A DNA stretch of 64,000 bases from Sulfurimonas marina (GTDB taxonomy: Bacteria > Campylobacterota > Campylobacteria > Campylobacterales > Sulfurimonadaceae), in contig NZ_CP041165.1 in NCBI RefSeq assembly GCF_014905095.1, positions 1,922,001-1,986,000 of the forward strand, given 5' to 3'. Positions 6,619 through 55,992 of this stretch are shown piece by piece (position 1 is the stretch's first letter; every line of letters begins with the position of its first letter). The notes beneath the pieces are model-generated. The model was not told the DNA's origin, made no database searches, and saw only the letters and a list, made by a program, of their open reading frames with translations. A program made the translations under genes and the position numbers.

Positions 6619-6651
6619 AGTTTATTACATCTTTATTACAATATGATTACA
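6619..6651 (-). promoter_or_regulatory. Pho box of the porin gene
   Basis: On the minus strand, units TGTAATC (6651..6645), TGTAATA (6640..6634) and TGTAATA (6629..6623) are spaced exactly 11 bp apart. A TAAACT -10 candidate at 6624..6619 starts 16 nt after the start of the middle unit; the third unit overlaps it. Confidence 0.75.
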
Positions 6652-6673
6652 ATCTGGAGACATATCTTTTTTA

Positions 6674-6740: not shown

Positions 6741-7745
6741 ATGACTAAAATAGCTAAAATTGCTCTTGCAACAACACTTCTGGCAGGTTCTTTAAGTGCT
6801 AGTGAAATCATTAAAGGAAGCGGTGCATCTTTTCCGTACAGTGTATACCAAAAATGGTTAAAAGCATATAATAAGGATACTGGTATTAAAGTAGACTATA
6901 TTAAAAAGGGTTCATCTAAAGGGATCAAAGATGCAAAAGAACGTGCAGTTGATTTTGCCGGAACAGATAAGCCTCTTTCTCCAAAAGTTTTAAAGCAAAA
7001 CAGACTTTATCAGTTCCCTGGTGTGGTTGGTGCAATCACTATGGGTTACAATCTTCCTGGAGTTAAAAACCTACAACTTAGCCGTAGTGCAATCGTAGCA
7101 ATTGCTAGCGGTAAAGTTGCGTACTGGGATGATCAAGTGATCGCATCTGCAAATAAAGGTGTTAAATTACCACATAAAAAAGTAACTTTCGTACACCGTG
7201 CAGACGGTAGTGGTACTACATATAACTTTACATACTACCTTTCAAAAGTTTCTAAAGAGTGGAGAAGAAACTTTGGAGCTAAAAAGTCACTTAACTGGCC
7301 TGGTGAGCAACACATCGGTGGTAAAACAAACTCAGGTGTAGCTGCACTTCTAAAACAAACTCCATTCTCAGTTGGATACATCGACTATGCTGATGCTAAA
7401 AACAACGGTATTACAATGGCAACTGTAGAAAACAAAGCTGGGAACTACATCAAACCAGAACTTAAATATTTCCAAATTGCAGCTGCAAAAGCAGACCTAA
7501 ACCCTGCAAAAGATTTCTATGCGGTGATCGCAGATCCTTCAGGTGCTGAGTCTTATCCGATGGTAGCGGCAACTTTCATCTTAGTTCCTGCAGAAAAGCC
7601 TGAGATGAACAAAAAAGTTACGGCATTTTATAACTGGTCATATGAAAATGGTCAAGAGATCGCAAAAAGCTTAGGTTTTGTTCCATTACCGGCAACATTA
7701 ACAGAAAAAATCAATACTTACTGGGCAAAAAAAGGTATTAAATAA
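6741..7745 (+). CDS. pstS: Periplasmic phosphate-binding protein PstS
   Basis: The 334-residue protein has a signal peptide (1-20, ending LSAS) and the phosphate-binding loops of the PstS family: GSGASFPYSVYQKW near the mature N-terminus, FAGTDKPLS at about 72-80, and HRADGSGTTYNFTYYL at about 152-167. It captures phosphate and passes it to the PstCA channel. The gene has its own Pho-box promoter. pstCAB begin 98 nt downstream after a second Pho-box promoter, so binding protein and transporter can be set at different levels. The 155-nt region upstream is shared with the divergent porin. Confidence 0.97.
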   Translation: MTKIAKIALATTLLAGSLSASEIIKGSGASFPYSVYQKWLKAYNKDTGIKVDYIKKGSSKGIKDAKERAVDFAGTDKPLSPKVLKQNRLYQFPGVVGAITMGYNLPGVKNLQLSRSAIVAIASGKVAYWDDQVIASANKGVKLPHKKVTFVHRADGSGTTYNFTYYLSKVSKEWRRNFGAKKSLNWPGEQHIGGKTNSGVAALLKQTPFSVGYIDYADAKNNGITMATVENKAGNYIKPELKYFQIAAAKADLNPAKDFYAVIADPSGAESYPMVAATFILVPAEKPEMNKKVTAFYNWSYENGQEIAKSLGFVPLPATLTEKINTYWAKKGIK

Positions 7746-43083: not shown

Positions 43084-44178
43084 ATGCAAAAAATTTTTAT
43101 AATACTTTTTACCCTAATCATTTTCATTACAATTACAATCTTCTTTTATTATAAACAAGAAGTAAAAGAGCAAAAGATCTATAAAATTATGGATCAGATG
43201 CGTCTTACTCTTCAGACACAATTAAAAACACAAAAGATGGAAGATTTACGCGTTGCACTAATGCTTTCAAAAGACCATACTTTAATTGACAGCCTTGAAA
43301 ATGATGATGAAGATTTTGGATACCAGATTATCTCCGATATTGCCCACACTATACAAAAAAACACAGGTTCTATAATCAGAGCGCAAGTGATCACAAAAGA
43401 TTTAAACATATTTGCACGCTCATGGGATGATGTATATGCAGGGATGCCTATTGGTGATTACAGAACCGATTTAAAATATTTTGATACCCATGATACACCC
43501 AGAACTTCCATAGAGGTTGGACGACGTCTAGGAATTAAAGCAACTGTTCCCGTCTACAAAGATGAAGAGTTTATAGGATATGTAGAAGCTATCTCTTTTT
43601 TTAAAAAAATTACAAACTTTTTTAGCAGTATCGGTGTAGACCTCTATGTTTTTCTAGATATCAAACATGCAGATTCAGCCGTACTTATGATGGAAAACTT
43701 GACAATCGGAGATTATATTCTCTCCAATAGAAACTATAATTATGCACATATCCAAACACTCAAAAAAATCGACTTTAAAGAGCTGAAACTAAGTGGTGTT
43801 GTATATAAAGATAACAGCTACATCTTTTATGAAAATATGAAAGATGGTAACGGACAAACGATAGGGGGCTTTGTTTTTGTTTTACCGGAGAAATATCTGG
43901 AATATTTTAGAAATCCTGAAGATGATATCTCCTTTCTCATTAACATTACCCGAAGTAATTTATATGATGTAGTGAGACAGGAAAACTATCAAGACAACAG
44001 TTACCAAAATTACTCTGCTAACTCTCTTATGCAACTTCAAGATGTAATTGACAGAGAAGACAGGGCTATCTTCTTTGATGAAGCGTATGATAAATTTGAC
44101 AAATACTCCAAAGATGAATTGATACAGATGATGTTAAACAGAAGAACTATTAAAAAAATAGATGGGAAAATAAAATGA
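43084..44178 (+). CDS. Membrane-anchored periplasmic Cache-domain sensor protein without output domain
   Basis: The 364-residue protein has one membrane helix at the N-terminus (about 3-23) and then a long periplasmic region. Residues about 45-275 resemble a double-Cache ligand-binding domain (ALMLSKDHTLIDSL, later FARSWDDVYAG and DYRTDL). No second helix, kinase, HAMP or methyl-accepting domain follows; the tail (about 285-364) is polar. The stop overlaps the response-regulator start (ATGA), so it is a part of the three-gene signalling operon before sox. It probably binds a ligand and acts on the kinase at 44818; this is inference. Its ribosome site is weak; a TATACT -10 candidate is at 43049..43054. 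Confidence 0.75.
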   Translation: MQKIFIILFTLIIFITITIFFYYKQEVKEQKIYKIMDQMRLTLQTQLKTQKMEDLRVALMLSKDHTLIDSLENDDEDFGYQIISDIAHTIQKNTGSIIRAQVITKDLNIFARSWDDVYAGMPIGDYRTDLKYFDTHDTPRTSIEVGRRLGIKATVPVYKDEEFIGYVEAISFFKKITNFFSSIGVDLYVFLDIKHADSAVLMMENLTIGDYILSNRNYNYAHIQTLKKIDFKELKLSGVVYKDNSYIFYENMKDGNGQTIGGFVFVLPEKYLEYFRNPEDDISFLINITRSNLYDVVRQENYQDNSYQNYSANSLMQLQDVIDREDRAIFFDEAYDKFDKYSKDELIQMMLNRRTIKKIDGKIK

Positions 44179-44828
44179 ACATTTTACTTTTAGAAGATGA
44201 ATATTCACTTCGCATTAGTATAGAGGAGTTTTTACGTGATATTGGATATAACGTAGATGGTTTTACAGATGGGAATGATGCCTATTATGCTATATACGAT
44301 AAAAGTTATGACATATTACTTTTAGATGTCAATGTCCCTTCGATCAACGGATTTGAACTCCTTAAAAAACTAAAAGATGAAAATATCAACATTCCGGCCA
44401 TTTTCTTAACATCGATGACAGATATAGACGACTTAAAAGAGGGCTATAGACGCGGTTGTTGTGACTATATTCGAAAACCGTTTGATCTAGAGGAGCTGGA
44501 ACTCCGCATTGAGCAAGCCTTAGCATCCTACCTGCAAAATAAAAGCTCGATTATAGAGTTAGGACCTGAGCTCGTCTACAATTTAAAAACGGCAAAACTC
44601 ACATATAAAGGGGAAGAGATCGTTTTACGTAAAACGGAAAAAGATCTTCTTGAGGTACTAATCAAAAATAAAAATGCCGTTGTCTCTACACAGATGTTTC
44701 AAGATGCAGTATGGGGAGAGTATGTCGAACCTGCAACCATTAGGGTACAACTAAACAACCTCAAAAAGAAACTTCCACTCGATATTTTGCAAAATAGACG
44801 TGGATTAGGATATATCATTGAACGATAA
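44175..44828 (+). CDS. OmpR-family response regulator, probable sox regulator
   Basis: The 217-residue protein has a receiver domain (acidic pocket LLEDEY, phospho-acceptor D51 in LLLDVNVPS, Thr in FLTSM, Lys in IRKPF) and a winged-helix Trans_reg_C domain (about 125-215) ending RRGLGYIIE. It lies between the sensor and kinase genes, overlapping both. Tandem 11-bp repeats at soxX and at the DUF302 gene are the likely binding sites, since OmpR/PhoB-type proteins bind such repeats. Confidence 0.88.
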   Translation: MNILLLEDEYSLRISIEEFLRDIGYNVDGFTDGNDAYYAIYDKSYDILLLDVNVPSINGFELLKKLKDENINIPAIFLTSMTDIDDLKEGYRRGCCDYIRKPFDLEELELRIEQALASYLQNKSSIIELGPELVYNLKTAKLTYKGEEIVLRKTEKDLLEVLIKNKNAVVSTQMFQDAVWGEYVEPATIRVQLNNLKKKLPLDILQNRRGLGYIIER

Positions 44829-45981
44829 TAAATATTCGGCAAAATACGCACTCATCTACACAACGCTTGTAGCTGTAATTTTACTTGCCCCGCTTGTTTA
44901 CTATACTATATACATGAAAAACATCTATTCTATCCAGAATGAGCTTTCTCTGAAAAAGAAATCTTTACTTGTTATTCAAGCGATGCAGGAGTACGATCAA
45001 GCCGATGATTATTTTGAATATCCTCGCTTTAAAACTTTCGATTCCGGTTTATACGGTGAAAACTTTCAGCCTATATTTACCCTTATTAAAAAACCGATAC
45101 CCTATTTTAAAAAGGGCTACTATTTAAACAATGAGGAAGCATACCTGATCGTAAAACTTCCAAAAGAGAGATATTTTGGAGCGCATTATCTCGTTTTGCA
45201 TAATACAATCTCTTTTGCACCCGTGTATGAGAAAGTACTGTTAATTCTTACAAGTATAGTTATCTTGATTTTTATCTCAAGTATATTTTTCTTAAAAACT
45301 TTTGCAAAACCTTTTCAAAGACTCAATAAGCAACTCGATACCTTTATCAAAGACTCTATGCATGAGATCAATACCCCTCTTGCCATTATAAACGTCAATA
45401 TCGATCTATACAATAGAAAATATGAACCAAACAAATACTTACGCAGAATGAAAGCTGCAACAAAAGTACTCTCAAATATTTATAACGATATGGACTATCT
45501 TATCAAACATGAACGGCTCTACTATGAAAAACAAGATATAAATATCAAAGAGTTTTTAGAAGAGCGAATAGAATACTTTTCAGAAGTAGCTGCGATGAAA
45601 GATATAAAAATCAATTCTAATTTAGAGAATTGCGGAACTCTTCATTTGAATGACAAGCAACTCCAAAGACTCATCGACAATAATATCTCCAATGCTATCA
45701 AGTATTCTTATGACAACTCGACTATTGAGATACGACTTTATATGAGAGACGGGGAACCTGTTCTTGAATTTGAAGATCATGGTGTCGGCATAGAAAAAGT
45801 TGAGAAAATATTCAGCAGATACTATAGAGAAAACAACAATAAAGGCGGTTTCGGAATAGGATTAAACATAGTAAAATCTATTATCAATGAAGAAAACATA
45901 GAGCTTCAAATCACCTCTACACCGAAGAAGGGAAGCCTTTTTAGATACATCTTTCCATCTAACTTACATAAAAATTTATAA
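44818..45981 (+). CDS. Sensor histidine kinase of the sox-linked system
   Basis: The 387-residue protein has helices at about 11-31 and 141-161 around a periplasmic part of about 110 residues, a HisKA domain with H182 in SMHEINTPLA, and a HATPase domain with DNNISNAIKYS, FEDHGVGI and GGFGIGLNIV. It lacks a clear Cache or PAS domain, which fits a partner role for the Cache protein at 43084. The start is TTG 44818, overlapping the regulator gene by 11 nt. soxX follows after 63 nt with its own promoter. Confidence 0.88.
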   Translation: MNDNKYSAKYALIYTTLVAVILLAPLVYYTIYMKNIYSIQNELSLKKKSLLVIQAMQEYDQADDYFEYPRFKTFDSGLYGENFQPIFTLIKKPIPYFKKGYYLNNEEAYLIVKLPKERYFGAHYLVLHNTISFAPVYEKVLLILTSIVILIFISSIFFLKTFAKPFQRLNKQLDTFIKDSMHEINTPLAIINVNIDLYNRKYEPNKYLRRMKAATKVLSNIYNDMDYLIKHERLYYEKQDINIKEFLEERIEYFSEVAAMKDIKINSNLENCGTLHLNDKQLQRLIDNNISNAIKYSYDNSTIEIRLYMRDGEPVLEFEDHGVGIEKVEKIFSRYYRENNNKGGFGIGLNIVKSIINEENIELQITSTPKKGSLFRYIFPSNLHKNL

Positions 45982-46014
45982 TTTTACATTCATTTTACAT
46001 TCGCTAGTTAAACT
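45982..46014 (+). promoter_or_regulatory. Tandem 11-bp operator and -10 of soxX
   Basis: TTTTACATTCA (45982) and TTTTACATTCG (45993) form a direct repeat of 11 bp. TAAACT at 46009..46014 starts 16 nt after the second unit begins. The promoter at 54542 has the same layout and shares the downstream pattern GTTAnACTT. Confidence 0.78.
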
Positions 46015-46044
46015 TGTCCTCGAAAATATATAGGAGGAACAAGA

Positions 46045-46572
46045 ATGAATAAAGCAGTAATCACTTCATTACTTGTCGGAGCTTCACTTTTTGCTGGAAA
46101 CTATAGCAAAGTTATTGAACATCCTGATGCAAGTAAAATGATACAAAATGATTTACTCGCACCTGCAAAAGCTTACACAATGCCTAAGGGTTGTATAACT
46201 ACTGATGCAGATGCAATTGCTAGAGGTGAGTATATTTTCCATAATCTCAATGGAAAAAAAGCTAAAAAAACACCACCAAAAGGTCTCAGTAAAAAAAATG
46301 CTGACGGTTCGCCAAAACAGTATGGAAACTGTGTAGCTTGCCATAACATTGAGGGAGCTAAAGGTGCCGGCAATATTGGTCCTGATTTAACAAAGTACAA
46401 AGAGTACATTATGGATACAGGTGCAAGAGATGCACAATTTGTTTATCAGAAAATTGCTGATGCAAGAATTGATAATCCAAATACTCATATGACAATTAAC
46501 TTAACAACAAAGTTATTCACAGAACAAGAAATATGTGACATTACTTCATATATTGTTGCAGAAAAAAAATAA
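46045..46572 (+). CDS. soxX: Sulfur-oxidation cytochrome SoxX
   Basis: The 175-residue periplasmic cytochrome c has a signal peptide (about 1-17), one heme site CVACH in GNCVACHNIEGAKGAG, and a likely Met ligand in NTHMTIN. It forms the SoxXA enzyme that joins thiosulfate to the SoxY cysteine. Upstream is an AGGAGG ribosome site. It is the first gene of soxXYZAB and carries the two-unit operator. Confidence 0.93.
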   Translation: MNKAVITSLLVGASLFAGNYSKVIEHPDASKMIQNDLLAPAKAYTMPKGCITTDADAIARGEYIFHNLNGKKAKKTPPKGLSKKNADGSPKQYGNCVACHNIEGAKGAGNIGPDLTKYKEYIMDTGARDAQFVYQKIADARIDNPNTHMTINLTTKLFTEQEICDITSYIVAEKK

Positions 46573-46584
46573 AGGGTAATAAAC

Positions 46585-47052
46585 ATGCAAAGAAGAGATT
46601 TTTTTAAAAAATTAGGAAGTGTAACAGCAGTTGCGGCAGTAATGCCGGTAATGAGTTTTGCAGCAGATGCACAACCTGTAAGTCCAAATAAAATGAGTTA
46701 CGAAACAGCGGTTAATGCTATCACAGGTGGAAAAACGCCGACAAAATCAAGTAAAGTATCGCTAAAAGTTCCTGAAATTGCGGAAAATGGAGCTGTTGTT
46801 CCTGTAACTGTAAATGTTGAGTCTCCTATGACTGAAAGTGACTATGTAAAAAGTATCCATATTTTAAATACTAAAAACGGAAATTCTCGTTGTATCGATG
46901 TTAACTTAACACCTGCAAACGGAAAAGCAATGTTCTCTACTCGTATCAAACTAGGCGGTACTCAAGATGTTGTTGCTGTAATAGAACTTAGTAACGGTGA
47001 GTTTCTTATAGCTTCACAAAATGTAAAAGTTACTATCGGTGGTTGTGGTTGA
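46585..47052 (+). CDS. soxY: Sulfur-carrier protein SoxY
   Basis: The 155-residue protein has a twin-arginine type signal (QRRDFFKKLG, then a hydrophobic stretch to about 27), so it is exported folded, probably as SoxYZ. The C-terminus is VTIGGCG: the Cys that carries the sulfur intermediate is the second-last residue, one Gly shorter than the common GGCGG tail. It carries the substrate between SoxXA and SoxB. Confidence 0.94.
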   Translation: MQRRDFFKKLGSVTAVAAVMPVMSFAADAQPVSPNKMSYETAVNAITGGKTPTKSSKVSLKVPEIAENGAVVPVTVNVESPMTESDYVKSIHILNTKNGNSRCIDVNLTPANGKAMFSTRIKLGGTQDVVAVIELSNGEFLIASQNVKVTIGGCG

Positions 47053-47102
47053 TTCTAACCATATATACATAATTTCAAAAGATAAAAAAAGAGGAAAAGA
47101 AA

Positions 47103-47438
47103 ATGGCAGAAAGAAAATCACTCATTAAAATTAAACCGAAAAGATATAAAGACGGTGAAGTAGTTAAAGTTAGTTTCATGGTAATGCACCCAATGGATAC
47201 AGGTATGGGAAAAGATAAAAAAACAAAAGAGATCATCCCTGCTAAATATATTAACAGTGTAAAATTTGTTTACAACGGTAAAGAGATCACAAATATGACA
47301 GTTTGGGAATCACTTTCAGTTAATCCTGTATTTACAACATACATGAAAATTAACGGTAAAGGTAAACTTACTATTACATATACAGACAACACTGGTGAAG
47401 TTCACGAAACAAGCAAAAAGATTAAGCCAAAAGGATAA
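47103..47438 (+). CDS. soxZ: Sulfur-carrier partner SoxZ
   Basis: The 111-residue protein has no signal peptide, as usual for SoxZ, which is exported with SoxY. It has an Ig-like fold pattern with FMVMHPMDTGMGKDKKTKE and VWESLSVNPVF, typical of the family. It follows soxY by 50 nt, with AGAGGAAAAG before its ATG. It forms the SoxYZ heterodimer. Confidence 0.94.
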   Translation: MAERKSLIKIKPKRYKDGEVVKVSFMVMHPMDTGMGKDKKTKEIIPAKYINSVKFVYNGKEITNMTVWESLSVNPVFTTYMKINGKGKLTITYTDNTGEVHETSKKIKPKG

Positions 47439-47442
47439 TCAG

Positions 47443-48213
47443 ATGAAAACAGGTATTAAAATAGCTCTTAGTATTGCAATGCTCTCTTCATTATCTTTTG
47501 GTGGTGAACAGTTTGCAATGAGCGATGCAGACCGCGCAATGTATGCAGAGATGTCAGAAAACAACCCTGCAGACATTATGGTTGCAGACGGTGAAAGTTA
47601 TATAGAAGAGTTAGGCGGCGATGCTGCACTTGCAAAATATCTTGGTGTAAGCGAAGATAATCTTCCATCATATATCGCAGGATTCCCTCGTTATATTAAA
47701 AAACTTGACATGGTTGTTGGACTTGATCAAGTAGTGCAAGCGATGATGCACGATCAAGGTAAAAAACCTTATACACTTAAAAGTGCAGAGATGTTTTCTG
47801 TCTTAGCATATGTAAAGTCTATTGCTAACGGTGAAAAGATTAACATTGACGTAAATGCAAACCCTCAAATGAAAGAGGCATATGCACTTGGAAAGAAAAC
47901 GTTTGAGACTCCAAGAGGTGGAAGAGGATTATCATGTCTTAGCTGTCACTCTCCTGACATGATCGGTACTGTTTTAAGAACGCAACCATTACCGGAACTT
48001 GGTTACCCGGGAAATGCAGCAGCAGCTACATGGCCTGCATACAGAATGACAAAATCATCTTTAAGAACGCTTCAACGCCGTTTTCAAGGATGTATGAATA
48101 ATGCACTTCTTAAAGTTATCCCTCTTGGTTCTAAAGAGATGGTAGCACTAGAAGTATATCTTACAGATAAAGCTAAGAATAGTGAAATCGCTATTCCAGG
48201 TTTAAAAAGATAG
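47443..48213 (+). CDS. soxA: Mono-heme SoxA
   Basis: The 256-residue periplasmic protein (start ATG 47443, AAGGA upstream) has a signal peptide to about 20, one heme site CLSCH (in GRGLSCLSCHSP), and the catalytic Cys in RRFQGCMNN, which ligates the heme and bears the persulfide. The N-terminal second heme of two-heme SoxA is absent. With SoxX it forms the c-type thiosulfate-joining enzyme. An upstream in-frame extension overlaps soxZ and is rejected. Confidence 0.94.
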   Translation: MKTGIKIALSIAMLSSLSFGGEQFAMSDADRAMYAEMSENNPADIMVADGESYIEELGGDAALAKYLGVSEDNLPSYIAGFPRYIKKLDMVVGLDQVVQAMMHDQGKKPYTLKSAEMFSVLAYVKSIANGEKINIDVNANPQMKEAYALGKKTFETPRGGRGLSCLSCHSPDMIGTVLRTQPLPELGYPGNAAAATWPAYRMTKSSLRTLQRRFQGCMNNALLKVIPLGSKEMVALEVYLTDKAKNSEIAIPGLKR

Positions 48214-48222
48214 AGGTAAAAA

Positions 48223-49986
48223 ATGGAAATATCTAGAAGAGATTTTATGCACATTGCAGCCATTTTTGGCCTTGGTGCAGTTGCTGCGGGTTGTACAACC
48301 TCAGCATTAAAAACACCTAATCAGATATCGTTAAAAGATATCTATGATTTTAAAGCAAAAGGGAATGTAACACTTTTACATATGTGTGACCTGCATGCCC
48401 ACTTAAAACCGCTTTACTGGAGAGAGCCGTCAACTTTGATCTCAGCTCCTAATCTTGTGGGAACTCCAGGGTTTCTATGCGGTGAAGCATTTGCAAATCA
48501 TTACGGACTTGAACCAAGTTCTTTAGATGCATATTTTGACACTCATATCGACTTTGAAGCACTGGCTAAAAAGTTTGGAAAAATGGGTGGTGTTGCACAT
48601 ATGAAAACATACCTTGATCGTGTACGTGCTGAGCGTGGAAATGAAAATGTTTTATTTTTAGACTCGGGTGATACATGGCAAGGGACTGGTGTTGCACTAA
48701 AAACTGATGGTGAAGCGATCGTAAAAGCACAAAACTATCTTGGTGTTGATGTAATGGTTGGTCACTGGGAATTTACTTACGGTAAAGAGCAAGTTAAAAA
48801 GCTGATCGAACAACTTGATGCGAAATTCGTTTCTCAAAATATTATTGGAGACGATCCGTTCTCTGATGAGTATGAAGAGCTAATTTTCGAACCATATACG
48901 ATCGAAGAGCGTGGTGGTGCTAAGATCGGTATTATAGGTCAGTCGTTCCCGTTCACTTCAACTGCAAACCCTAAAGAGTTTACACAAGGCTGGAGTTTCG
49001 GTTTAAGACTTGACACACTTCAAGAGTATGTGGATGAATTAAGAGACGAGCATAAAGTTGATTGTGTAGTTGTACTTTCACACGACGGATTCAGCGTTGA
49101 TCAAGAGGTAGCTCGTAAAGTTCACGGTATTGACTTCATCTTAAGTGGACATACACATGACCCTTCACCAAAACCGATCACTATTGACGGTACTGTAATC
49201 GTTATTGCAGGAAGCCACGGGAAATATGTAGGACGTTTAGATATTGATGCCAAAGACGGTAAAGTTCATGGATATGAATATAAACTTGTACCAATTGCAT
49301 CAAATATGATACCAGCTGATCCAGAGGGTGTAAAACTAATTGATGAACTATATGCACCATTTGATGCAGAGTTCAATGAAGTTCTAGGTCAGACAAAAAA
49401 CATCCTTTATAAAAGAGATACTTTCTTCTCAACATTTGATCAACTCATCAATGATGCGATCATGGATGAAATGAAATGTGACATCTCATTTACACCTGGT
49501 TACAGATGGGGAACAACTGTTTTAGCGGGTGATGACATTTTAATGGAAAATGTTTACGAGATGTGTGGTATCACGTACCCAAATGTTTATACATTTGAGT
49601 TAAAAGGTTCAAAAATCGCTACATTACTAGAAGATATTGCAGATAATGTTTTTAATGCGAATCCTCTTTACCAACAAGGTGGAGATATGAGTCGTCTTGG
49701 CGGTGTTACTTACAGTATTGCAGTAGCAAATAAAGCGGGACAAAGAATCTCTAATCTTAAAGTAGGAGGTAAACCGATAGATCTGGAAAAAACTTATGTA
49801 GTTTCTTCATGGGGAGGGAACTTACAAAATGCCGGAGCCAATTTACGTAAAGATAAGATCAGACCTGTATACGACGTTGTAAGAGATTATGTAAAACGTC
49901 AAAAAGTGGTTGATGTTAGTAATGAGGGGAATGTAACACTCGTAGATTATAACTGCGGATGTCCTACAAAAGGCTCTAGAGGCTAG
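48223..49986 (+). CDS. soxB: Thiosulfohydrolase SoxB
   Basis: The 587-residue protein has a Tat signal (EISRRDFMHIAAIFG) with a possible lipobox-like AAGC near 24. A dimanganese metallophosphoesterase domain carries DLHAH, DSGDTWQG, the SoxB-typical GHWEFTYG, LSHDGF and SGHTHDP. A C-terminal 5'-nucleotidase domain follows (about 395-560). It releases sulfate from SoxY-bound intermediates. It is close to family length. A hairpin (49990..50019) separates it from the porin gene. Confidence 0.96.
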   Translation: MEISRRDFMHIAAIFGLGAVAAGCTTSALKTPNQISLKDIYDFKAKGNVTLLHMCDLHAHLKPLYWREPSTLISAPNLVGTPGFLCGEAFANHYGLEPSSLDAYFDTHIDFEALAKKFGKMGGVAHMKTYLDRVRAERGNENVLFLDSGDTWQGTGVALKTDGEAIVKAQNYLGVDVMVGHWEFTYGKEQVKKLIEQLDAKFVSQNIIGDDPFSDEYEELIFEPYTIEERGGAKIGIIGQSFPFTSTANPKEFTQGWSFGLRLDTLQEYVDELRDEHKVDCVVVLSHDGFSVDQEVARKVHGIDFILSGHTHDPSPKPITIDGTVIVIAGSHGKYVGRLDIDAKDGKVHGYEYKLVPIASNMIPADPEGVKLIDELYAPFDAEFNEVLGQTKNILYKRDTFFSTFDQLINDAIMDEMKCDISFTPGYRWGTTVLAGDDILMENVYEMCGITYPNVYTFELKGSKIATLLEDIADNVFNANPLYQQGGDMSRLGGVTYSIAVANKAGQRISNLKVGGKPIDLEKTYVVSSWGGNLQNAGANLRKDKIRPVYDVVRDYVKRQKVVDVSNEGNVTLVDYNCGCPTKGSRG

Positions 49987-49989
49987 GTG

Positions 49990-50019
49990 TGAAAGCGGCA
50001 GTTGCAGCTGCCACTTTCA
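49990..50019 (+). terminator. Intercistronic hairpin after soxB
   Basis: TGAAAGCGGCAG (49990..50001) pairs with CTGCCACTTTCA (50008..50019), 12 positions with one mismatch and a 6-nt loop, 3 nt after the soxB stop. T-rich sequence follows (TTTGTGTTT). Since related genes follow in the same direction, it may be a partial terminator or mRNA-processing site that lowers expression downstream. Confidence 0.6.
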
Positions 50020-50055
50020 TTTGTGTTTAAAGAAAAACAACAAGGGGATTATAAT

Positions 50056-51558
50056 ATGAAATTTGTAAAGATGAGTTTAATTGCTGCATTAACTTGTGGT
50101 GCGTTTGTAACTGCTTCAGCGGATGATGCAAAACCAAAACGTCAGTTAAAAGGGAACATGATGGAGGTATACAATGTACTTCCAGGAAAAGCTGACAACA
50201 TTGTTGATGCTTTAGCTGATGGTGTGTTCTACGGTCGTTTACGTTCAAACTCTTTTTATTGGGATTGGAAAAACGATGAGACTTCTAACAAGGATAATAA
50301 AGCTTCAGGTCTAGGTGGTAGTTTAATCTATAAAACTGCTTCTTATGAAGGTCTAAGTGCTACTGCCGGTATGTACTTTTCAACTAACCTTATCCACACA
50401 GCTCATGATGATCTAGGTACAATCAAAGCAGGTAAAGATACATTCAGCCGTCATAATGCATTTATTGGTGATGATTACTCAATGGCTGTATTAGGACAAG
50501 CGTATTTACAATATGATGTATCTAAAACTTCTGTTAAAGTTGGTCGTCAAATTTTTGAATCGTTTTTAACAAAATCAAATGATACAAAAATGGTTCCAAA
50601 TACATTTGACGGTCTAGTAGTGACAAATAAAGATCTTCCACAAACAAGAGTTCGCGGTGCTTATTTCCTAACACAAAAACTTCGTGATCATACAACTGCA
50701 CATGATGTAATTACATTCGATACGGGAAGTGCTACTGATGCAAAATCAAGCTGGAACGGAAATGATGACTCTGCTGTACATAAAGGTTTAAGCCATGCAA
50801 ACTTTTTAGCTGCAGGTGAAGATACTAATCACGATCTTATCGTAGTAGACCTACAAAATAAATCTGTTGAAAACTTACAAGTTGATGTAACATACGGAAG
50901 TGTTCCGGGTGTTGTTTCTTCACTTACTGGTGAATTAAACTATAAAGTTGATCTAGGTAGCGGTTACTCTTTAACTCCGGGTGTACGTTACATGAAGCAG
51001 TTTGATAACGGCGGTGGAGAAGTTGGTGGTGCTACACTAAAAGGTACCCTTGCAATTGATAAAACACCTGCGGACAACTTAGGATATAAAGAGAGATATA
51101 CACTTGACTCTTCACTTGCTATGGCTCGTTTAGTACTTAAAAAAGGTGCTTTAAAAGCGCAAATCGCTTACTCTGCTGTTGAAGATGCAGCGGATATCGT
51201 AGCTCCATGGCGTGGATTCCCGACTGGCGGATATACTCGTGCAATGGCACAATACAACTGGTATGCAAATACTAAAACAACTGCTGCAGAAGTAAAATAT
51301 GACTTCGGTAAAGCGAAAATGGTTCCGGGCTTTAGTGCAATGGTTCGTTATGCAATGCAAAACTTTGATGAAGCAAAACAAGCTGCCGGTGTACAAGCTG
51401 ATAGCAATATCATCCATATGGATTTTATTGAGCAGTTTACTCCTGAACTTCAAGCAAAAGTGCGTGTTGGTTTAGTAAGTGCAGATGCTCGTCAATCAGA
51501 TGGTGTTGATAAAGACTCTTACAACGAATACCGTTTTGAGTTAAACTACCTGTTCTAA
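50056..51558 (+). CDS. OprD-like outer-membrane porin of the sox operon
   Basis: The 500-residue protein (ATG 50056 with AAGGGG upstream; an upstream in-frame start is rejected) has a signal peptide (1-22, ending ASA) and amphipathic strands up to a terminal FELNYLF, with aromatic end. It looks like an OprD/Opr-type barrel common beside sox genes in Campylobacterota. It may admit sulfur compounds to the periplasm, as inferred from context. Confidence 0.82.
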   Translation: MKFVKMSLIAALTCGAFVTASADDAKPKRQLKGNMMEVYNVLPGKADNIVDALADGVFYGRLRSNSFYWDWKNDETSNKDNKASGLGGSLIYKTASYEGLSATAGMYFSTNLIHTAHDDLGTIKAGKDTFSRHNAFIGDDYSMAVLGQAYLQYDVSKTSVKVGRQIFESFLTKSNDTKMVPNTFDGLVVTNKDLPQTRVRGAYFLTQKLRDHTTAHDVITFDTGSATDAKSSWNGNDDSAVHKGLSHANFLAAGEDTNHDLIVVDLQNKSVENLQVDVTYGSVPGVVSSLTGELNYKVDLGSGYSLTPGVRYMKQFDNGGGEVGGATLKGTLAIDKTPADNLGYKERYTLDSSLAMARLVLKKGALKAQIAYSAVEDAADIVAPWRGFPTGGYTRAMAQYNWYANTKTTAAEVKYDFGKAKMVPGFSAMVRYAMQNFDEAKQAAGVQADSNIIHMDFIEQFTPELQAKVRVGLVSADARQSDGVDKDSYNEYRFELNYLF

Positions 51559-51570
51559 AAAGGATATATT

Positions 51571-52479
51571 ATGAAATTATTGCTTGTGGTGCTAAATTTA
51601 TTTTTCATCCCCCTACTCCTTGCTTTTGAATATAAAATTCAACCCCAAAAAGTCAGTAGTGATATCTACTGCTTTTTTGGTGCACCGCAGGCAATAAACA
51701 AAGATAACAACGGTAACATGGTAAACTCTTGTTTTGTTGACATGGGTGAGAGTTACCTTGTTATTGACAGCGGACCTACATATAACTATGCAAAAGAAGC
51801 ATATAGTGTAATGAAAAAGATCAAGAATCAGCCTATTGCTTATGTGATCAATACACATGCACATGATGACCATTGGTTAGGAAACGGTTACTATAAAAAA
51901 CTAGGAATTGATATTATCGGCTCAGCTCAGTTTAAAAACGAAGCAAAAGTTGAAGTAACAAGAATGCAAAGAAGTGTAACAAAAGAAGCATATGAAAACA
52001 CTACGCAGGAGTTTCCAAATCTTTTTGTAGATGATAAACAAACACTTACTATTAACAAACAAAAAGTACTTTTTTCCCGTGTACACGACAAAGCTCACTC
52101 AAGTAGTGACCTTTTAGTTTACATCCCAAGCAAATCTGCTCTTTTTGCAGGTGACCTTGTATTTAACGACAGAGTGCCTTCACTTCGTGACGGTAACATC
52201 AATCGTTGGATCGAAGAGCTCTCAAAAATGAAAGAGGGAGATTACACTTATATTATAGGTGGGCACGGCTCACTTGTAAGTAAACACTCCATAGACATAA
52301 CATATGAGTATCTCGTAACACTCAAAGAGGAGTTAGAAAATGCTCTTGATGAAGGTATGGAAATTGATGATGCGATCAATGCTATTGTGATGAAAAAATT
52401 CAAAGATATTGCAATGTATGACGTGCTCCATAGACAAAATGTTGAAACAGCATATAGGACTTTAGAATGGGAACAATAA
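51571..52479 (+). CDS. Periplasmic metallo-beta-lactamase-fold hydrolase, SoxH-like
   Basis: The 302-residue protein has a signal peptide (1-18) and the MBL metal motif HAHDDHW in VINTHAHDDHWLGN, with further ligands in RVHDKAHSSSD, LFAGDLVF and IIGGHG. It matches SoxH-type hydrolases found beside sox genes, of unclear reaction. It lies 12 nt after the porin gene and overlaps the thioredoxin gene by 13 nt. Confidence 0.8.
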   Translation: MKLLLVVLNLFFIPLLLAFEYKIQPQKVSSDIYCFFGAPQAINKDNNGNMVNSCFVDMGESYLVIDSGPTYNYAKEAYSVMKKIKNQPIAYVINTHAHDDHWLGNGYYKKLGIDIIGSAQFKNEAKVEVTRMQRSVTKEAYENTTQEFPNLFVDDKQTLTINKQKVLFSRVHDKAHSSSDLLVYIPSKSALFAGDLVFNDRVPSLRDGNINRWIEELSKMKEGDYTYIIGGHGSLVSKHSIDITYEYLVTLKEELENALDEGMEIDDAINAIVMKKFKDIAMYDVLHRQNVETAYRTLEWEQ

Positions 52480-52850
52480 ACAAACTCTTTGTCTCTTTAG
52501 TACTTCTTAGTGCTTCATTAGAAGCTATGGAGTGGGTGAGCTACAACCAAGCACTAAAGATCCAAAAACAGACACATCAGCCTATTATGCTTGATGTAAT
52601 GAGAACAGATTGTCACTACTGCATTGATATGGAAAAAAAAGTATTTCAAGACGATGCGATGGCAAAATGGCTTACACAAAGATTTATACCTGTAAAAATT
52701 AATCTCGATACAGATACCATGCCCATCGATCAAGAAGTAACTTTTACCCCTACATTCTTTTTTTTGGATGGGCAAGGTAAAATAATAAAAAAAATTCCAG
52801 GTTCTTGGAATATACAAGACTTTAAAGATTTAACAAAGGGGATCAAATGA
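52467..52850 (+). CDS. Periplasmic thioredoxin-fold protein, SoxW-like
   Basis: The 127-residue protein has a signal peptide (about 1-21) and the thioredoxin-like active site CHYC in MRTDCHYCIDMEKKVF, with cis-Pro in FTPTFFFLDGQG. It probably keeps cysteines of Sox proteins (such as SoxY) reduced, as thioredoxins in sox clusters do; the exact partner is inferred. It overlaps the next gene by 4 nt (ATGA). Confidence 0.82.
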   Translation: MGTINKLFVSLVLLSASLEAMEWVSYNQALKIQKQTHQPIMLDVMRTDCHYCIDMEKKVFQDDAMAKWLTQRFIPVKINLDTDTMPIDQEVTFTPTFFFLDGQGKIIKKIPGSWNIQDFKDLTKGIK

Positions 52851-53281
52851 TACGAACTGTTTTTCTTCTTCTATTATTAAATGTGTTTAGTTATGCAGAT
52901 ACAATCTTTGCAGAGCCGGCACCTTCGATCATGGAACCTAGACAAATCATCTTTTCAATAAACAGAGGGGATGATGAAACCATTCATCATGTACTGAGTT
53001 CTGCCAACAATGTTTTGAAATATTATGGTCCGGAAAAAGTACATATGAGAATAGTTGCTTACTATCATGGACTCAGAGCTTTACTCAAAAAAGAGAAAGA
53101 TATTGCTGTACGTATCGATGCACTACAACAATACGACGTTGAGTTTGTAGCGTGTGAAAACACAATGAAAACAAAACAGATAAAAAAAGAGGAGTTAATA
53201 GATGATGTTGAGATTGTAACAGCGGGCATTGTCGAAATAACAGAACGTGTAAAAGAGGGGTGGATATACATCGTCCCTTAA
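52847..53281 (+). CDS. Exported DsrE-family protein (first copy)
   Basis: The 144-residue protein has a signal peptide (about 1-17) and a DsrE/DsrF-like fold: the strand QIIFSINRGDDETIHHVLSS, then MRIVAYYHG, and FVACENTM with a Cys at the place typical for sulfur transfer. The C-terminal EGWIYIVP resembles EGYAYIPV of the second copy at 55525. It may carry sulfur in the periplasm. It ends the first sox transcription unit, before a palindromic hairpin. Confidence 0.8.
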   Translation: MIRTVFLLLLLNVFSYADTIFAEPAPSIMEPRQIIFSINRGDDETIHHVLSSANNVLKYYGPEKVHMRIVAYYHGLRALLKKEKDIAVRIDALQQYDVEFVACENTMKTKQIKKEELIDDVEIVTAGIVEITERVKEGWIYIVP

Positions 53282-53286
53282 TCTGC

Positions 53287-53314
53287 TTTAAATGATATCA
53301 AGATATCATTTAAA
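53287..53314 (+). terminator. Palindromic hairpin ending the sox operon
   Basis: A perfect 13-bp stem (53287..53299 with 53302..53314) of TTTAAATGATATC type with only AA between, 5 nt after the DsrE gene stop, followed by a pyrimidine-rich stretch (CTCTTACTCTC). It probably works as a terminator despite its AT-rich stem. Confidence 0.6.
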
Positions 53315-53459
53315 CTCTTACTCTCTTTCCTCAAACTGGTAAACCCAGTGAAGATTTTCCATGATTTATAGTTTTGTTCCAAAACCTACTATTTTTGATA
53401 CATTGATTATGTAGTATCAGGATATTGTCAACACAATCTTAACTGAAAAGGCTTCATGT

Positions 53460-54323
53460 CTAAAACTGTTCATTACTAATAATTCGAAGATCTAAAAAAT
53501 CACTATTTTCATTTGAAGACTTCACAAGTTCCATAAGTTCTTTAGAAGATAGTATTGATACACTAGATTTTTCTAATTGTGTTATCTCTGGAAACATCTC
53601 TAACATTTCAAAGTAAATTTTTTCCATTTCATCTGTTCCTGAATAATTATAACTCCCTACCCATCGTCCATTTTGATTATCACTATAAGCATCTGTTACA
53701 AACTTACAGGTATTAATAATATCCTTTGCATTTACAATATAAGAAATAACTTTTGGTTGTATATTTGAGTCTAATGCAACATTATTGTATTCAACTAACT
53801 TTTTTAATTCTTCATAATCATTATCTAAAGGTTTAATAAACACTGATTTACCCCATGCATTTGCCTGACGTTGGGAAAAGTTTTTTGGAAAGCCATGTCC
53901 ATTCAAATCAACATTATAATCGTGCTGAACTACATAACGTAATGCATTAAACAATGTTTGATGAAATCTACATAAATTTCTTGCAACGAGTAATCTAGCA
54001 GGTCTCCATTGCTCATTTTCCTGTTTTTTAAGTAACTCATTTTGCTTTTCTGCATAAACATGTGCAAGTGAATTCAGAAAAATACCAATAATAAAAATTC
54101 CTGCTAAAGATTCTAATGCAGTCAAAGCCCGAGCCATATCAGTTTTAGGGGTGATATCACCATAACCTAAAGTTGTAATAGTAACTATACTAAAATATAA
54201 ACTTTCTATAAAGGATAAGGGTTCTATCCAAAACTTTGGAAAACACCAATAAATTACACTGAATAATACAATCAATACAAGATATAAAATACCTGTATTT
54301 CTTGGAGAAATATAAAAATTCAT
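53460..54323 (-). CDS. Two-helix potassium-channel protein with C-terminal cytoplasmic domain
   Basis: The 287-residue protein has a first helix (about 10-30), a pore region with the K+ filter TLGYGD, a second helix (about 70-98), then a long soluble tail of unknown fold. ATG 54323 with AGAAGG upstream is preferred over TTG 54350. It is oriented against its neighbours and divides the sulfur island in two. It looks more AT-rich than the sox genes, which suggests later insertion, but no repeats or mobile genes flank it. Confidence 0.82.
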   Translation of the reverse strand: MNFYISPRNTGILYLVLIVLFSVIYWCFPKFWIEPLSFIESLYFSIVTITTLGYGDITPKTDMARALTALESLAGIFIIGIFLNSLAHVYAEKQNELLKKQENEQWRPARLLVARNLCRFHQTLFNALRYVVQHDYNVDLNGHGFPKNFSQRQANAWGKSVFIKPLDNDYEELKKLVEYNNVALDSNIQPKVISYIVNAKDIINTCKFVTDAYSDNQNGRWVGSYNYSGTDEMEKIYFEMLEMFPEITQLEKSSVSILSSKELMELVKSSNENSDFLDLRIISNEQF

Positions 54324-54426
54324 AAATAAAAACCTTCTGATTATTAACAAAATTATATAATAAAATCTAAGCAGAATGGAATGTCTTCAATATACTAGAA
54401 ATTTATTAAATCAAAAATCTCTTACA

Positions 54427-54468
54427 TTTGGAACACAGTTGGCAATTAAAAGCTTTCCGTGTTCCAAA
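54427..54468. repeat. 10-bp inverted repeat in the intergenic region
   Basis: TTTGGAACAC (54427..54436) and GTGTTCCAAA (54459..54468) are perfect inverted repeats separated by 22 nt, between the divergent channel and DUF302 genes. It could be an operator or a hairpin; nothing else supports a role. Confidence 0.4.
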
Positions 54469-54541
54469 AATGTTCAAAAAATCAAAAGTTTAAATTCTCT
54501 AAAACTTTCAAGAGTTTAGGAATAAAAACAAGAGTTTATAG

Positions 54542-54574
54542 TTTTACATTAATTTTACACTCAATCGTTACACT
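54542..54574 (+). promoter_or_regulatory. Tandem 11-bp operator and -10 of the DUF302-DsrE operon
   Basis: TTTTACATTAA (54542) and TTTTACACTCA (54553) repeat at 11 bp. TACACT at 54569..54574 starts 16 nt after the second unit begins. The arrangement matches the soxX promoter at 45982..46014, which implies control by the same regulator. Confidence 0.75.
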
Positions 54575-54600: not shown

Positions 54601-55515
54601 ATGAAAAAGATAGTTGTCTTACTGCTAAGTGCGATCGCACTTATGGCACAAGGGGATCTACACCTTTTTAGTGTAGATAATAAGTCTGGAGCACTGACTC
54701 CTAAAGTAATTGAGAAGAGCTTTGTAAAGAACGGTTTTACGGTAACTCTTAACAACGATATGACGGGACCGTTTAAAAAACAGTTTCAAAAGAGTGACTT
54801 TAAGATTTTCAATCTTATGACGGTAGTTGAGCCTAAACTTGCAGATAAACTTTTACGTATAAATGCAAATGCCGGTGTGTTTATCCCAATGGGTGTTGGG
54901 ATCTATCAGGCAAACGGTGAAGATACATTACATGTAAGTATCTTGACATCAGAGGCACAGGCAAAAATTATAGGTATTGAAAATAACGAGCTTTTAAAAA
55001 CTCTTGAAGCAAAAACTATCAAAACAATTAAAGAAGCATTGCCGAATGCAAAACAAACTTTGAGCGAAGATTCTCTTAAAGAGAGCAGAAACCTTGTAAG
55101 TGCTTATGAGTATGAACTTGACGATGCTGATGACTTTGATGATGCAAAAGAGGAGATCAAGATGTCTTTAGAGAGCAATTTTGCTCCAAAAGGTTTTATC
55201 GTTCCGGCAACACTTGATTATGAACTTGGAGTCTTAGATGAAAATGCAGATTCTCCGTTTGATTTTTACGAATCATACTCTATTTGTAAACTTCCTGTAA
55301 TCTATACAGTTGCAAAAACTCGTCCCGAAGCTGCTGCGTTTGCTCCTTGTACTACAATGTTGTACAAGAAAAAAGGTGATGATAAAATTGTTATGGGATT
55401 CCCTGCTGTTTACAACTGGTTAAGCAGTGCACACGTAACAGACGATGCTGCACATCAAGAGCTTATGAAAGCACAACAAGATTTTGAACAAATTTTGAAA
55501 GATATTACAGAATAG
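54601..55515 (+). CDS. Exported double-DUF302 protein
   Basis: The 304-residue protein has a signal peptide (1-17) and two DUF302-like domains (about 20-155 and 175-300). The first has VFIPMGVGIYQ, the second FAPCTTMLYKKK, at matching places; only the second has the Cys. DUF302 proteins are of unknown function and are often found near sulfur genes. Its promoter matches that of soxX, so it is probably a member of the sox regulon. It is followed after 9 nt by a DsrE-like gene. Confidence 0.82.
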   Translation: MKKIVVLLLSAIALMAQGDLHLFSVDNKSGALTPKVIEKSFVKNGFTVTLNNDMTGPFKKQFQKSDFKIFNLMTVVEPKLADKLLRINANAGVFIPMGVGIYQANGEDTLHVSILTSEAQAKIIGIENNELLKTLEAKTIKTIKEALPNAKQTLSEDSLKESRNLVSAYEYELDDADDFDDAKEEIKMSLESNFAPKGFIVPATLDYELGVLDENADSPFDFYESYSICKLPVIYTVAKTRPEAAAFAPCTTMLYKKKGDDKIVMGFPAVYNWLSSAHVTDDAAHQELMKAQQDFEQILKDITE

Positions 55516-55524
55516 GTTGAAAAA

Positions 55525-55992
55525 ATGAAAAAGATCATTGTTTTACTTTTTGCTTTCGTTTCGTTCTTATCTGCTGCTTCAGATACAAAAAAAGTTGTGA
55601 TCGATTTTACAAGCGGGGACCTTCAAGTTTTTGAAAAGAAGATCCTCTCTGGAATCCCTCACCATAAACTCTATTTCGAAAATAGATTTGAAGAGCTTGA
55701 AGTTGCTATCGTAATCCACGGAGATGCTTACAAACTTTTTGTAAAAAATTTACAAAATACATCTTACAAAAAAGAAGAAGCTCTTGTAGCCAAACAACCA
55801 GAGTATGAAAAAAGACTTACTTCTCTCGTAGATACATATAATGTTGAGATCTATATGTGTGATGTTGGAAGAAAAAATAATAAAATTGCACAAGAAGATC
55901 TTTATAAATTTGTAAAGATTGTTCCAAACTCTACAATAGGTCTAATCGACAAACAAAATGAGGGATATGCATATATTCCTGTTGCAAAATAA
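55525..55992 (+). CDS. Exported DsrE-family protein (second copy)
   Basis: The 155-residue protein has a signal peptide (about 1-18) and the DsrE-like pattern VVIDFTSGD, VAIVIHGDAYKLFV and IYMCDVGRKNN with one conserved Cys. It is a distant paralogue of the protein at 52847. Together with the DUF302 protein it forms a two-gene unit under the sox-type operator. Periplasmic sulfur transfer is inferred. It ends directly against the converging SDR gene. Confidence 0.8.
   Translation: MKKIIVLLFAFVSFLSAASDTKKVVIDFTSGDLQVFEKKILSGIPHHKLYFENRFEELEVAIVIHGDAYKLFVKNLQNTSYKKEEALVAKQPEYEKRLTSLVDTYNVEIYMCDVGRKNNKIAQEDLYKFVKIVPNSTIGLIDKQNEGYAYIPVAK

Follow-up and report, generated by a model that had tools for sequence, protein, structure and literature searches.

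A tandem 11-bp repeat as the predicted operator of a sox regulon in Sulfurimonas marina and its relatives

Tandem repeats at the sox locus

A 64,000-nt stretch of the Sulfurimonas marina genome (contig NZ_CP041165.1, positions 1,922,001 to 1,986,000; hereafter the window, with coordinates counted from its first base) carries a Sox thiosulfate-oxidation cluster and, downstream of it, genes encoding a DUF302 protein and a DsrE-like protein. Each of these units is preceded by a tandem repeat with an 11-bp period. Judged from the sequence comparisons presented here, the repeats before the thiosulfate-oxidation genes very probably serve as the binding site of the adjacently encoded sensor-regulator system. 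The genes, operators and -10 boxes of this locus described below lie on the forward (+) strand.

Operator 1, TTTTACATTCA TTTTACATTCG (45982-46003), begins with the base directly after the stop codon of a histidine kinase gene and consists of two 11-bp units (45982-45992 and 45993-46003), each made of TTTTACA and a further 4 bp; this operator is conserved before soxX in relatives. Operator 2, TTTTACATTAA TTTTACACTCA (54542-54563), is a pattern match at a distance of 8,560 bp and likewise comprises two 11-bp units (54542-54552 and 54553-54563). In both cases the -10 box begins exactly 16 nt downstream of where unit 2 starts, with TAAACT (46009-46014) in the soxX promoter and TACACT (54569-54574) in the DUF302-dsrE2 promoter. 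An earlier note on this DNA had claimed that the two tandems share their period and their spacing to the -10 box and lie about 8.5 kb apart; this is borne out, with the 16 nt counted from the start of the second unit, and the DNA beyond the repeats (GTTAAACTT and GTTACACTT) also lines up along GTTAnACTT as the note had stated. A direct repeat of 7 bp plus 4 bp over the -35 region is the geometry of OmpR/PhoB-family operators, and the soxX promoter has no TTGACA-like -35 element at the usual distance from its -10 box.

Three genes upstream of operator 1 encode the candidate signalling system. The proposed activator is a response regulator (44175..44828; Response_reg and Trans_reg_C), which is placed in the OmpR/PhoB family by its receiver and winged-helix Trans_reg_C domains, by the 11-bp-period direct-repeat operator near the regulator genes and by the adjoining sensor histidine kinase gene (44818..45981; HisKA and HATPase_c). 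It falls far short of the PhoB equivalog model (TIGR02154, 102.9 bits against a cut-off of 296.2). The kinase is encoded beside the regulator here and in the relatives fetched, and the two presumably act as a pair. An OmpR-type regulator had been reported just before soxX: the gene is indeed nearby, and it is the kinase gene that directly adjoins soxX. The first of the three genes (43084..44178) encodes a membrane-anchored dCache_3 protein (Pfam, 1.5e-9), likely an accessory sensor, with no recognised kinase or methyl-accepting domain and no second Pfam family at 0.001; a dCache_3 sensor gene precedes the regulator in most of the relatives' clusters fetched.

The cluster downstream contains soxX (46045..46572; TIGR04485), soxY (46585..47052; TIGR04488), soxZ (47103..47438; TIGR04490), soxA (47443..48213; TIGR04484; translated from 47440, with an ATG at 47443) and soxB (48223..49986; TIGR04486), all of which score above the curated cut-offs and identify it as a Sox thiosulfate-oxidation cluster. 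The remainder of the sox unit (50026..53281) encodes OprD-like porin, metallo-beta-lactamase-fold, thioredoxin-like and DsrE-like proteins, as assigned by Pfam; the start codon of the porin gene is uncertain, and the gene order from porin to DsrE is alike in many relatives. Operator 2 precedes the DUF302 protein gene (54601..55515; PF03625) and the DsrE-like gene dsrE2 (55525..55992; PF02635). At E 1e-15, matches to the DUF302 protein occur in 158 of the 200 family genomes, paralogues included.

A 20-nt tandem pattern with up to two mismatches matches the window twice against 0.07 matches expected, and none of 100 shuffles reaches two. For a 33-nt pattern that includes the -10 box, built from the soxX sites of relatives, there are two matches at up to three mismatches against 0.08 expected (one of 100 shuffles reaches two). 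Across the whole 2.26-Mb genome, the exact tandem pattern occurs twice and its reversal not at all, and the two window operators are the only matches to the full promoter pattern without a mismatch. At up to three mismatches the 33-nt pattern has six matches genome-wide (two at zero, one at one, one at two and two at three), and the reversed pattern has none. The 20-nt tandem without the -10 box does not stand out at three mismatches, where it has 33 matches in the genome and its reversal has 26. The -10 box was added to the search pattern because the loose tandem (two to three mismatches) comes too near its reversed control, and genome-wide claims are set at no more than one mismatch, as the 33-nt pattern at three mismatches is near the control in many relatives. 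Elsewhere in the window, a further tandem 11-bp repeat, TTTATTACATC/TTTATTACAAT (6621-6653), with a -10 box at equal distance, lies 5' of the open reading frame at 6741; tandems like it give zero to three matches per shuffled window (10 shuffles).

Conservation of the site upstream of soxX

Among the 200 genomes of the family, 101 have soxX. Four of these (G042, G056, G130 and G198) were left out for missing or short upstream sequence, so that the count covers S. marina itself and 96 relatives. We found the site with at most three mismatches in 94 of the 96 relatives (53 at zero, 33 at one, five at two and three at three), and the reversed pattern reaches three mismatches in only one of the same 96 upstream regions. 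In the 400 nt upstream of soxB, used as a control (90 loci), the best match is never below six mismatches. Chance is ruled out for the soxX site by this conservation.

A first pass had found the tandem at up to five mismatches in 86 of 87 soxX upstream regions; in the sole miss, G036, the site lies farther upstream (784038-784070). The 86-site alignment has the consensus TTTTACAYWAATTTTACAYT, seven bases, TAnAMT. In the corresponding logo each unit has an invariant TTTA, and the -10 box is invariant at its T, A and last T; the flanks vary. The two relatives without a site are G153 and G171, and a close regulator orthologue was found in neither. In G153 (L252; L386 among the named loci) the regulator and kinase genes are missing, the operator is gone and the first 20 regulator codons are fused in frame to soxX, which could reflect either a genuine deletion or an assembly error in a metagenome bin; the G171 contig begins 121 nt before soxX.

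Named soxX loci, which overlap the family genome set, give a similar result: among the best 80 of 154, 73 have the site with at most three mismatches, including loci from Sulfurovum, Nitratiruptor and Hydrogenimonas. The seven misses are L386 (the G153 locus), L399 (G171), L405, L428, L429, L433 and L442. L263, with 65 nt upstream of soxX, was set aside in the family count, although the named contig L426 has the site at two mismatches. In one relative (G101, L134) three tandem units, not two, precede soxX.

Co-occurrence of the site and the regulator

Orthologues of the 44175 regulator, counted at an identity of at least 57% (the G050 regulator, at 51%, was not counted), occur in 97 of the 200 family genomes, S. 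marina included, and the usual gene order is sensor, regulator and kinase followed by soxXYZAB. The 33-nt pattern at no more than one mismatch is present in 95 of the 200, and the reversed pattern has two matches in all 200 together. By this measure the site is found in 90 of the 97 genomes with the regulator and in five of the 103 without it.

Most of the exceptions can be described individually. Where the site occurs without the regulator, soxX lies near a contig edge in G032 and G159 (G159 still shows the end of the regulator gene there) and the sox unit is cut by a contig end in G151; in G050 and G124 the site is followed by a cytochrome-like gene and by one that has no Pfam relatives in its family. 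Conversely, four of the genomes with the regulator and no site at this threshold (G015, G024, G076 and G080) have a soxX site at two to three mismatches. For the remaining three, the soxX contig is outside the set (G042) or there is no soxX match (G031 and G157).

Sites at DUF302/DsrE units, Sulf_transp genes and chemoreceptors

In most relatives examined, the DUF302 gene directly follows the DsrE gene of the sox unit, inside the sox operon and without a site of its own. In S. marina another gene lies between DUF302 and the sox operon, and DUF302 has its own operator copy. We regarded a DUF302 or dsrE2 gene as leading its own unit if the gap to the nearest recognised gene upstream exceeds 150 nt, which gave 15 leading rows (14 genomes) and 106 inner rows. 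The site is present in 12 of the 14 genomes with a leading gene (G000, G079, G183, G006, G008, G024, G042, G153, G010, G027, G036 and G044, of which the last four are close relatives), versus one of the 106 genes inside an operon. A counterpart of operator 2 precedes DUF302 in the relatives G079 and G059.

As DUF302 is inside the sox operon in most of the relatives examined, its own site would be a lineage-specific addition, and it looks as if operator 2 was gained when DUF302-dsrE2 separated from the sox operon. A possible intermediate between the two arrangements is G059, in which DUF302 lies 63 nt after dsrE yet has its own perfect site. In G079 (L121), the closest relative, the DUF302 gene is split in two overlapping matches, possibly by a frameshift.

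The sensor-regulator-kinase operon has a site only where dsrE2 leads that operon; in this arrangement the site (at most three mismatches) was found in six of eight genomes (G093, G139, G141, G146, G136 and G164). Autoregulation of the operon in its usual arrangement was considered and rejected, the best match upstream of the sensor gene never falling below five mismatches (91 loci).

The S. marina genome has a single one-mismatch site, and the gene that follows it after 23 nt (genome position 873081) encodes a 352-aa Sulf_transp (SoxT/YeeE-like) protein; the domain is recognised by PF04143 at 171.2 bits against a cut-off of 27. This gene is a candidate third target in the genome, a SoxT/YeeE-like transporter with a predicted role in sulfur import or signalling. 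A Sulf_transp gene is present in 15 of the 200 family genomes, and 12 of the 14 full-length orthologues have the site at no more than two mismatches, placed 14-34 nt upstream of the start; there is no site at the partial gene of G117.

Across the family, 20 of the sites away from soxX (at most one mismatch) precede DUF302, DsrE or Sulf_transp genes and six precede dCache sensors or chemoreceptors. The earlier note had proposed a delimited sox regulon that can be identified by its site, with an OmpR-type regulator gene nearby, and named, as one part of what would speak against it, a lack of more such sites at the sulfur genes of related genomes. On this part the comparison came out the opposite way and supports the proposal: sites recur before soxX, Sulf_transp genes and DUF302/DsrE units outside the operon, and the site follows the regulator.

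Chemoreceptor-like genes of about 710 aa have the site in five genomes (L314, L330, L343, L345 and L348), and dCache_3 and MCP domains were confirmed by Pfam for L314 and L330. These sites suggest that sulfur oxidation and chemotaxis are under common control.

Other two-component systems with similar promoters

A second OmpR-type regulator and kinase precede cytochrome c-soxY2-soxZ2 in the S. marina genome (C1:297012-300154; L254:513-3655). The gap after this kinase contains a perfect CTTCACA tandem, CTTCACAATCA CTTCACAATTA, in which both the 11-bp period and the 16-nt spacing to the -10 box (here TATACT) recur. At L255:299-331, upstream of soxCDYZ (L255:443 on), the tandem is weaker, ATTATCACATA/ATTTTCACAAA, and stands at an equal distance to a -10 box (TATAAT); the soxYZ genes of L255 are nearly identical to those of L254. 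The earlier note had singled out soxCDYZ as a place to look for the TTTTACA site. There are tandems before both units, but they are different ones, and no TTTTACA site at up to three mismatches was found before soxYZ2 or soxCDYZ (L254 and L255). When 17 regulators were aligned with that of the window, 16 of them (from Sulfurimonas to Sulfurovum, sister systems included) had a recognition helix close to ANIRVQ-NNLRKKL; only RR2, the S. marina paralogue beside the second soxYZ, differed.

Order-wide (298 genomes, the family included), the site at no more than one mismatch is present in 54 genomes, and the reversed control has two matches. The cytochrome-like targets in other families have products that begin like paired-CXXCH cytochromes; the paired-CXXCH domain was confirmed by Pfam only for a similar gene, that of L353. 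At five loci from other families (L471, L483, L484, L485 and L489), a related kinase precedes a paired-CXXCH-like gene with the same operator in front, and four of the five also have a regulator gene, 45-49% identical.

Predicted mechanism and alternative explanations

We consider it probable, and with good confidence, that both repeats are operators of one regulon, through which the two-component system 44175/44818 would switch on sox along with further sulfur genes. The regulator is a predicted OmpR/PhoB-type activator, and its binding is assumed to depend on phosphorylation. The kinase would phosphorylate it, perhaps aided by the dCache protein, with thiosulfate or a related sulfur compound as the likely signal. 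The regulator would bind as a head-to-tail dimer to the two 7-bp TTTTACA half-sites 11 bp apart, the second half-site falling in the -35 region with its unit starting 16 nt before the -10 box. Given this position, the bound dimer would most likely recruit RNA polymerase, as PhoB does, to promoters without a good -35 element. The predicted targets in S. marina are the sox unit from soxXYZAB through the porin, metallo-beta-lactamase-fold and thioredoxin-like genes to dsrE, the DUF302-dsrE2 unit and the Sulf_transp gene at 873081.

Several observations weigh against this explanation. A missing regulator is confounded with missing sox genes (soxX also occurs in 93 of the 97 genomes that have the regulator), and the Fisher value for the association overstates the evidence, because the genomes are related and the counts are not independent. 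Individual candidates do not conform: the separately placed DUF302 genes of G101 and G195 have no site, the dsrE2-led regulator operon has none in G017 and four mismatches in G081, and the Sulf_transp gene has none in G193 and four mismatches, in place, in G048. Of 48 family sites away from soxX (at most one mismatch, counted manually), 22 precede other or unclear genes, including those for a winged-helix-only protein, a MoxR-like ATPase and an alpha/beta hydrolase. Outside the family the motif is not confined to sox, as only five of 27 loci (at most one mismatch) are at soxX; 11 others lead cytochrome-like genes, and at the remaining 11 the site precedes a different gene or no gene at all. 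Sister two-component systems share both the recognition helix and the motif, so that cross-binding by a paralogue is possible, and the S. marina genome itself has 11 regulator-like matches, with helices compared for only two other S. marina regulators.

Another explanation is that the site is read by one or more other OmpR-family paralogues with a shared recognition helix, the neighbouring system being just one of them. Other families have regulators, 45-50% identical and with nearly the same helix, before cytochrome-like genes that carry the same motif, and the cluster around one regulator about 50% identical to the 44175 protein starts with TTTTACACTTTCTTTTCACT. Within the family, however, the site follows the 44175 orthologue, as the genome counts above indicate, and the two other S. 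marina regulators compared differ in their helices (one is partly alike); we regard this explanation as unlikely.

The operator overlaps the -35 region, and this would also suit a repressor that covers the core promoter and releases sox when sulfur compounds appear. Against repression stand the fixed 16-nt phase to the -10 box and the missing TTGACA-like -35; a fixed phase and a missing -35 are typical of activator-dependent promoters. Repressors of sulfur oxidation are known in Hyphomicrobium (PMC12423496, PMC11582611), but they are ArsR-type, not OmpR-type. Repression seems about as unlikely as a paralogue reading the site. An origin of the repeats in chance, or in a generic likeness of AT-rich promoters, is so improbable as to be negligible: TTTTACA-like words are common, as the near-control counts of the loose tandem illustrate, but with the -10 box and one mismatch the reversed pattern almost disappears from the 200 genomes, and the soxX site persists in nearly all relatives.

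A broader interpretation, which goes beyond the activation of sox by the 44175/44818 system, seems to us possible and is put forward tentatively. Sulfur oxidation in Campylobacterota may be controlled by a set of paralogous two-component systems whose promoters have a common geometry but different half-site words, TTTTACA for soxXYZAB, DUF302-DsrE, SoxT-like importers and dCache chemoreceptors, and CTTCACA for soxYZ2 and perhaps soxCDYZ; genes leaving the sox operon would keep their regulation by acquiring their own operator. If so, cells could adjust each half of the Sox pathway, and sulfur chemotaxis as well, independently of the others.

Relation to known regulatory systems

The regulon appears to be undescribed, although its mechanism is of a known kind and two-component control of sulfur oxidation is known, with other sites, in Acidithiobacillus caldus, a member of another phylum. 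A literature search, with most subscription papers outside its scope, showed no described sox regulator or operator for Campylobacterota among the titles and abstract openings listed, and in the part available a review of regulation in the phylum refers to sox purely as an enzyme system (PMC6682613). Campylobacterota count among the major sulfur oxidisers of vents and sulfidic waters. A named candidate sox regulator, with an operator precise enough for genome searches, makes the question of what turns on Sox in these bacteria directly testable, and ties genes of unclear role (DUF302, DsrE, Sulf_transp and chemoreceptors) to thiosulfate oxidation.

In architecture the site resembles those of PhoB and its relatives, which are direct repeats; PhoP binds as a tandem dimer to 7-bp motifs with a 4-bp spacer (PMC4832192), and a model of PhoB places it over the -35 region, in contact with sigma and alpha (PMC3348028). 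It differs from the pho box in its half-site, TTTTACA, in a regulator that scores far below the PhoB cut-off and in its targets, many of which are sulfur genes. The EnvZ-OmpR-like RsrS-RsrR system of A. caldus controls inorganic sulfur oxidation and directly controls tetH from a site upstream of the promoter (PMC5093147). That site is a 19-bp element, AACACCTGTTACACCTGTT, called an inverted repeat there; compared by eye, the present consensus, TTTTACAYW repeated at 11 bp, does not resemble it in sequence or spacing. TspS-TspR of the same species is likewise a two-component system beside a sox cluster but depends on sigma-54 (PMC5093147), whereas the promoter described here looks sigma-70-like and the regulator is OmpR-type.

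In Hyphomicrobium denitrificans, regulation of sulfur oxidation by SoxR and sHdrR is combined with a YeeE-like SoxT that imports sulfur for oxidation (PMC11582611), which recalls the Sulf_transp target; the repressors there sense sulfane sulfur without a phosphorelay (PMC12423496). Within Campylobacteria, the response regulator CemR/Abu0127 affects energy metabolism, and the SOX system is named in a legend of its paper, but the regulator is described as atypical and the text available reports no sox operator (PMC11334517). The sox cluster of Arcobacter is thought to be of separate origin (PMC2147049). In Sulfurovum indicum, soxABXY1Z1 transcripts were higher with thiosulfate than with elemental sulfur, and the neighbouring dsrE, soxW and soxH1 were up 2.17-3.83-fold (PMC10045233), a response that fits a thiosulfate-type signal.

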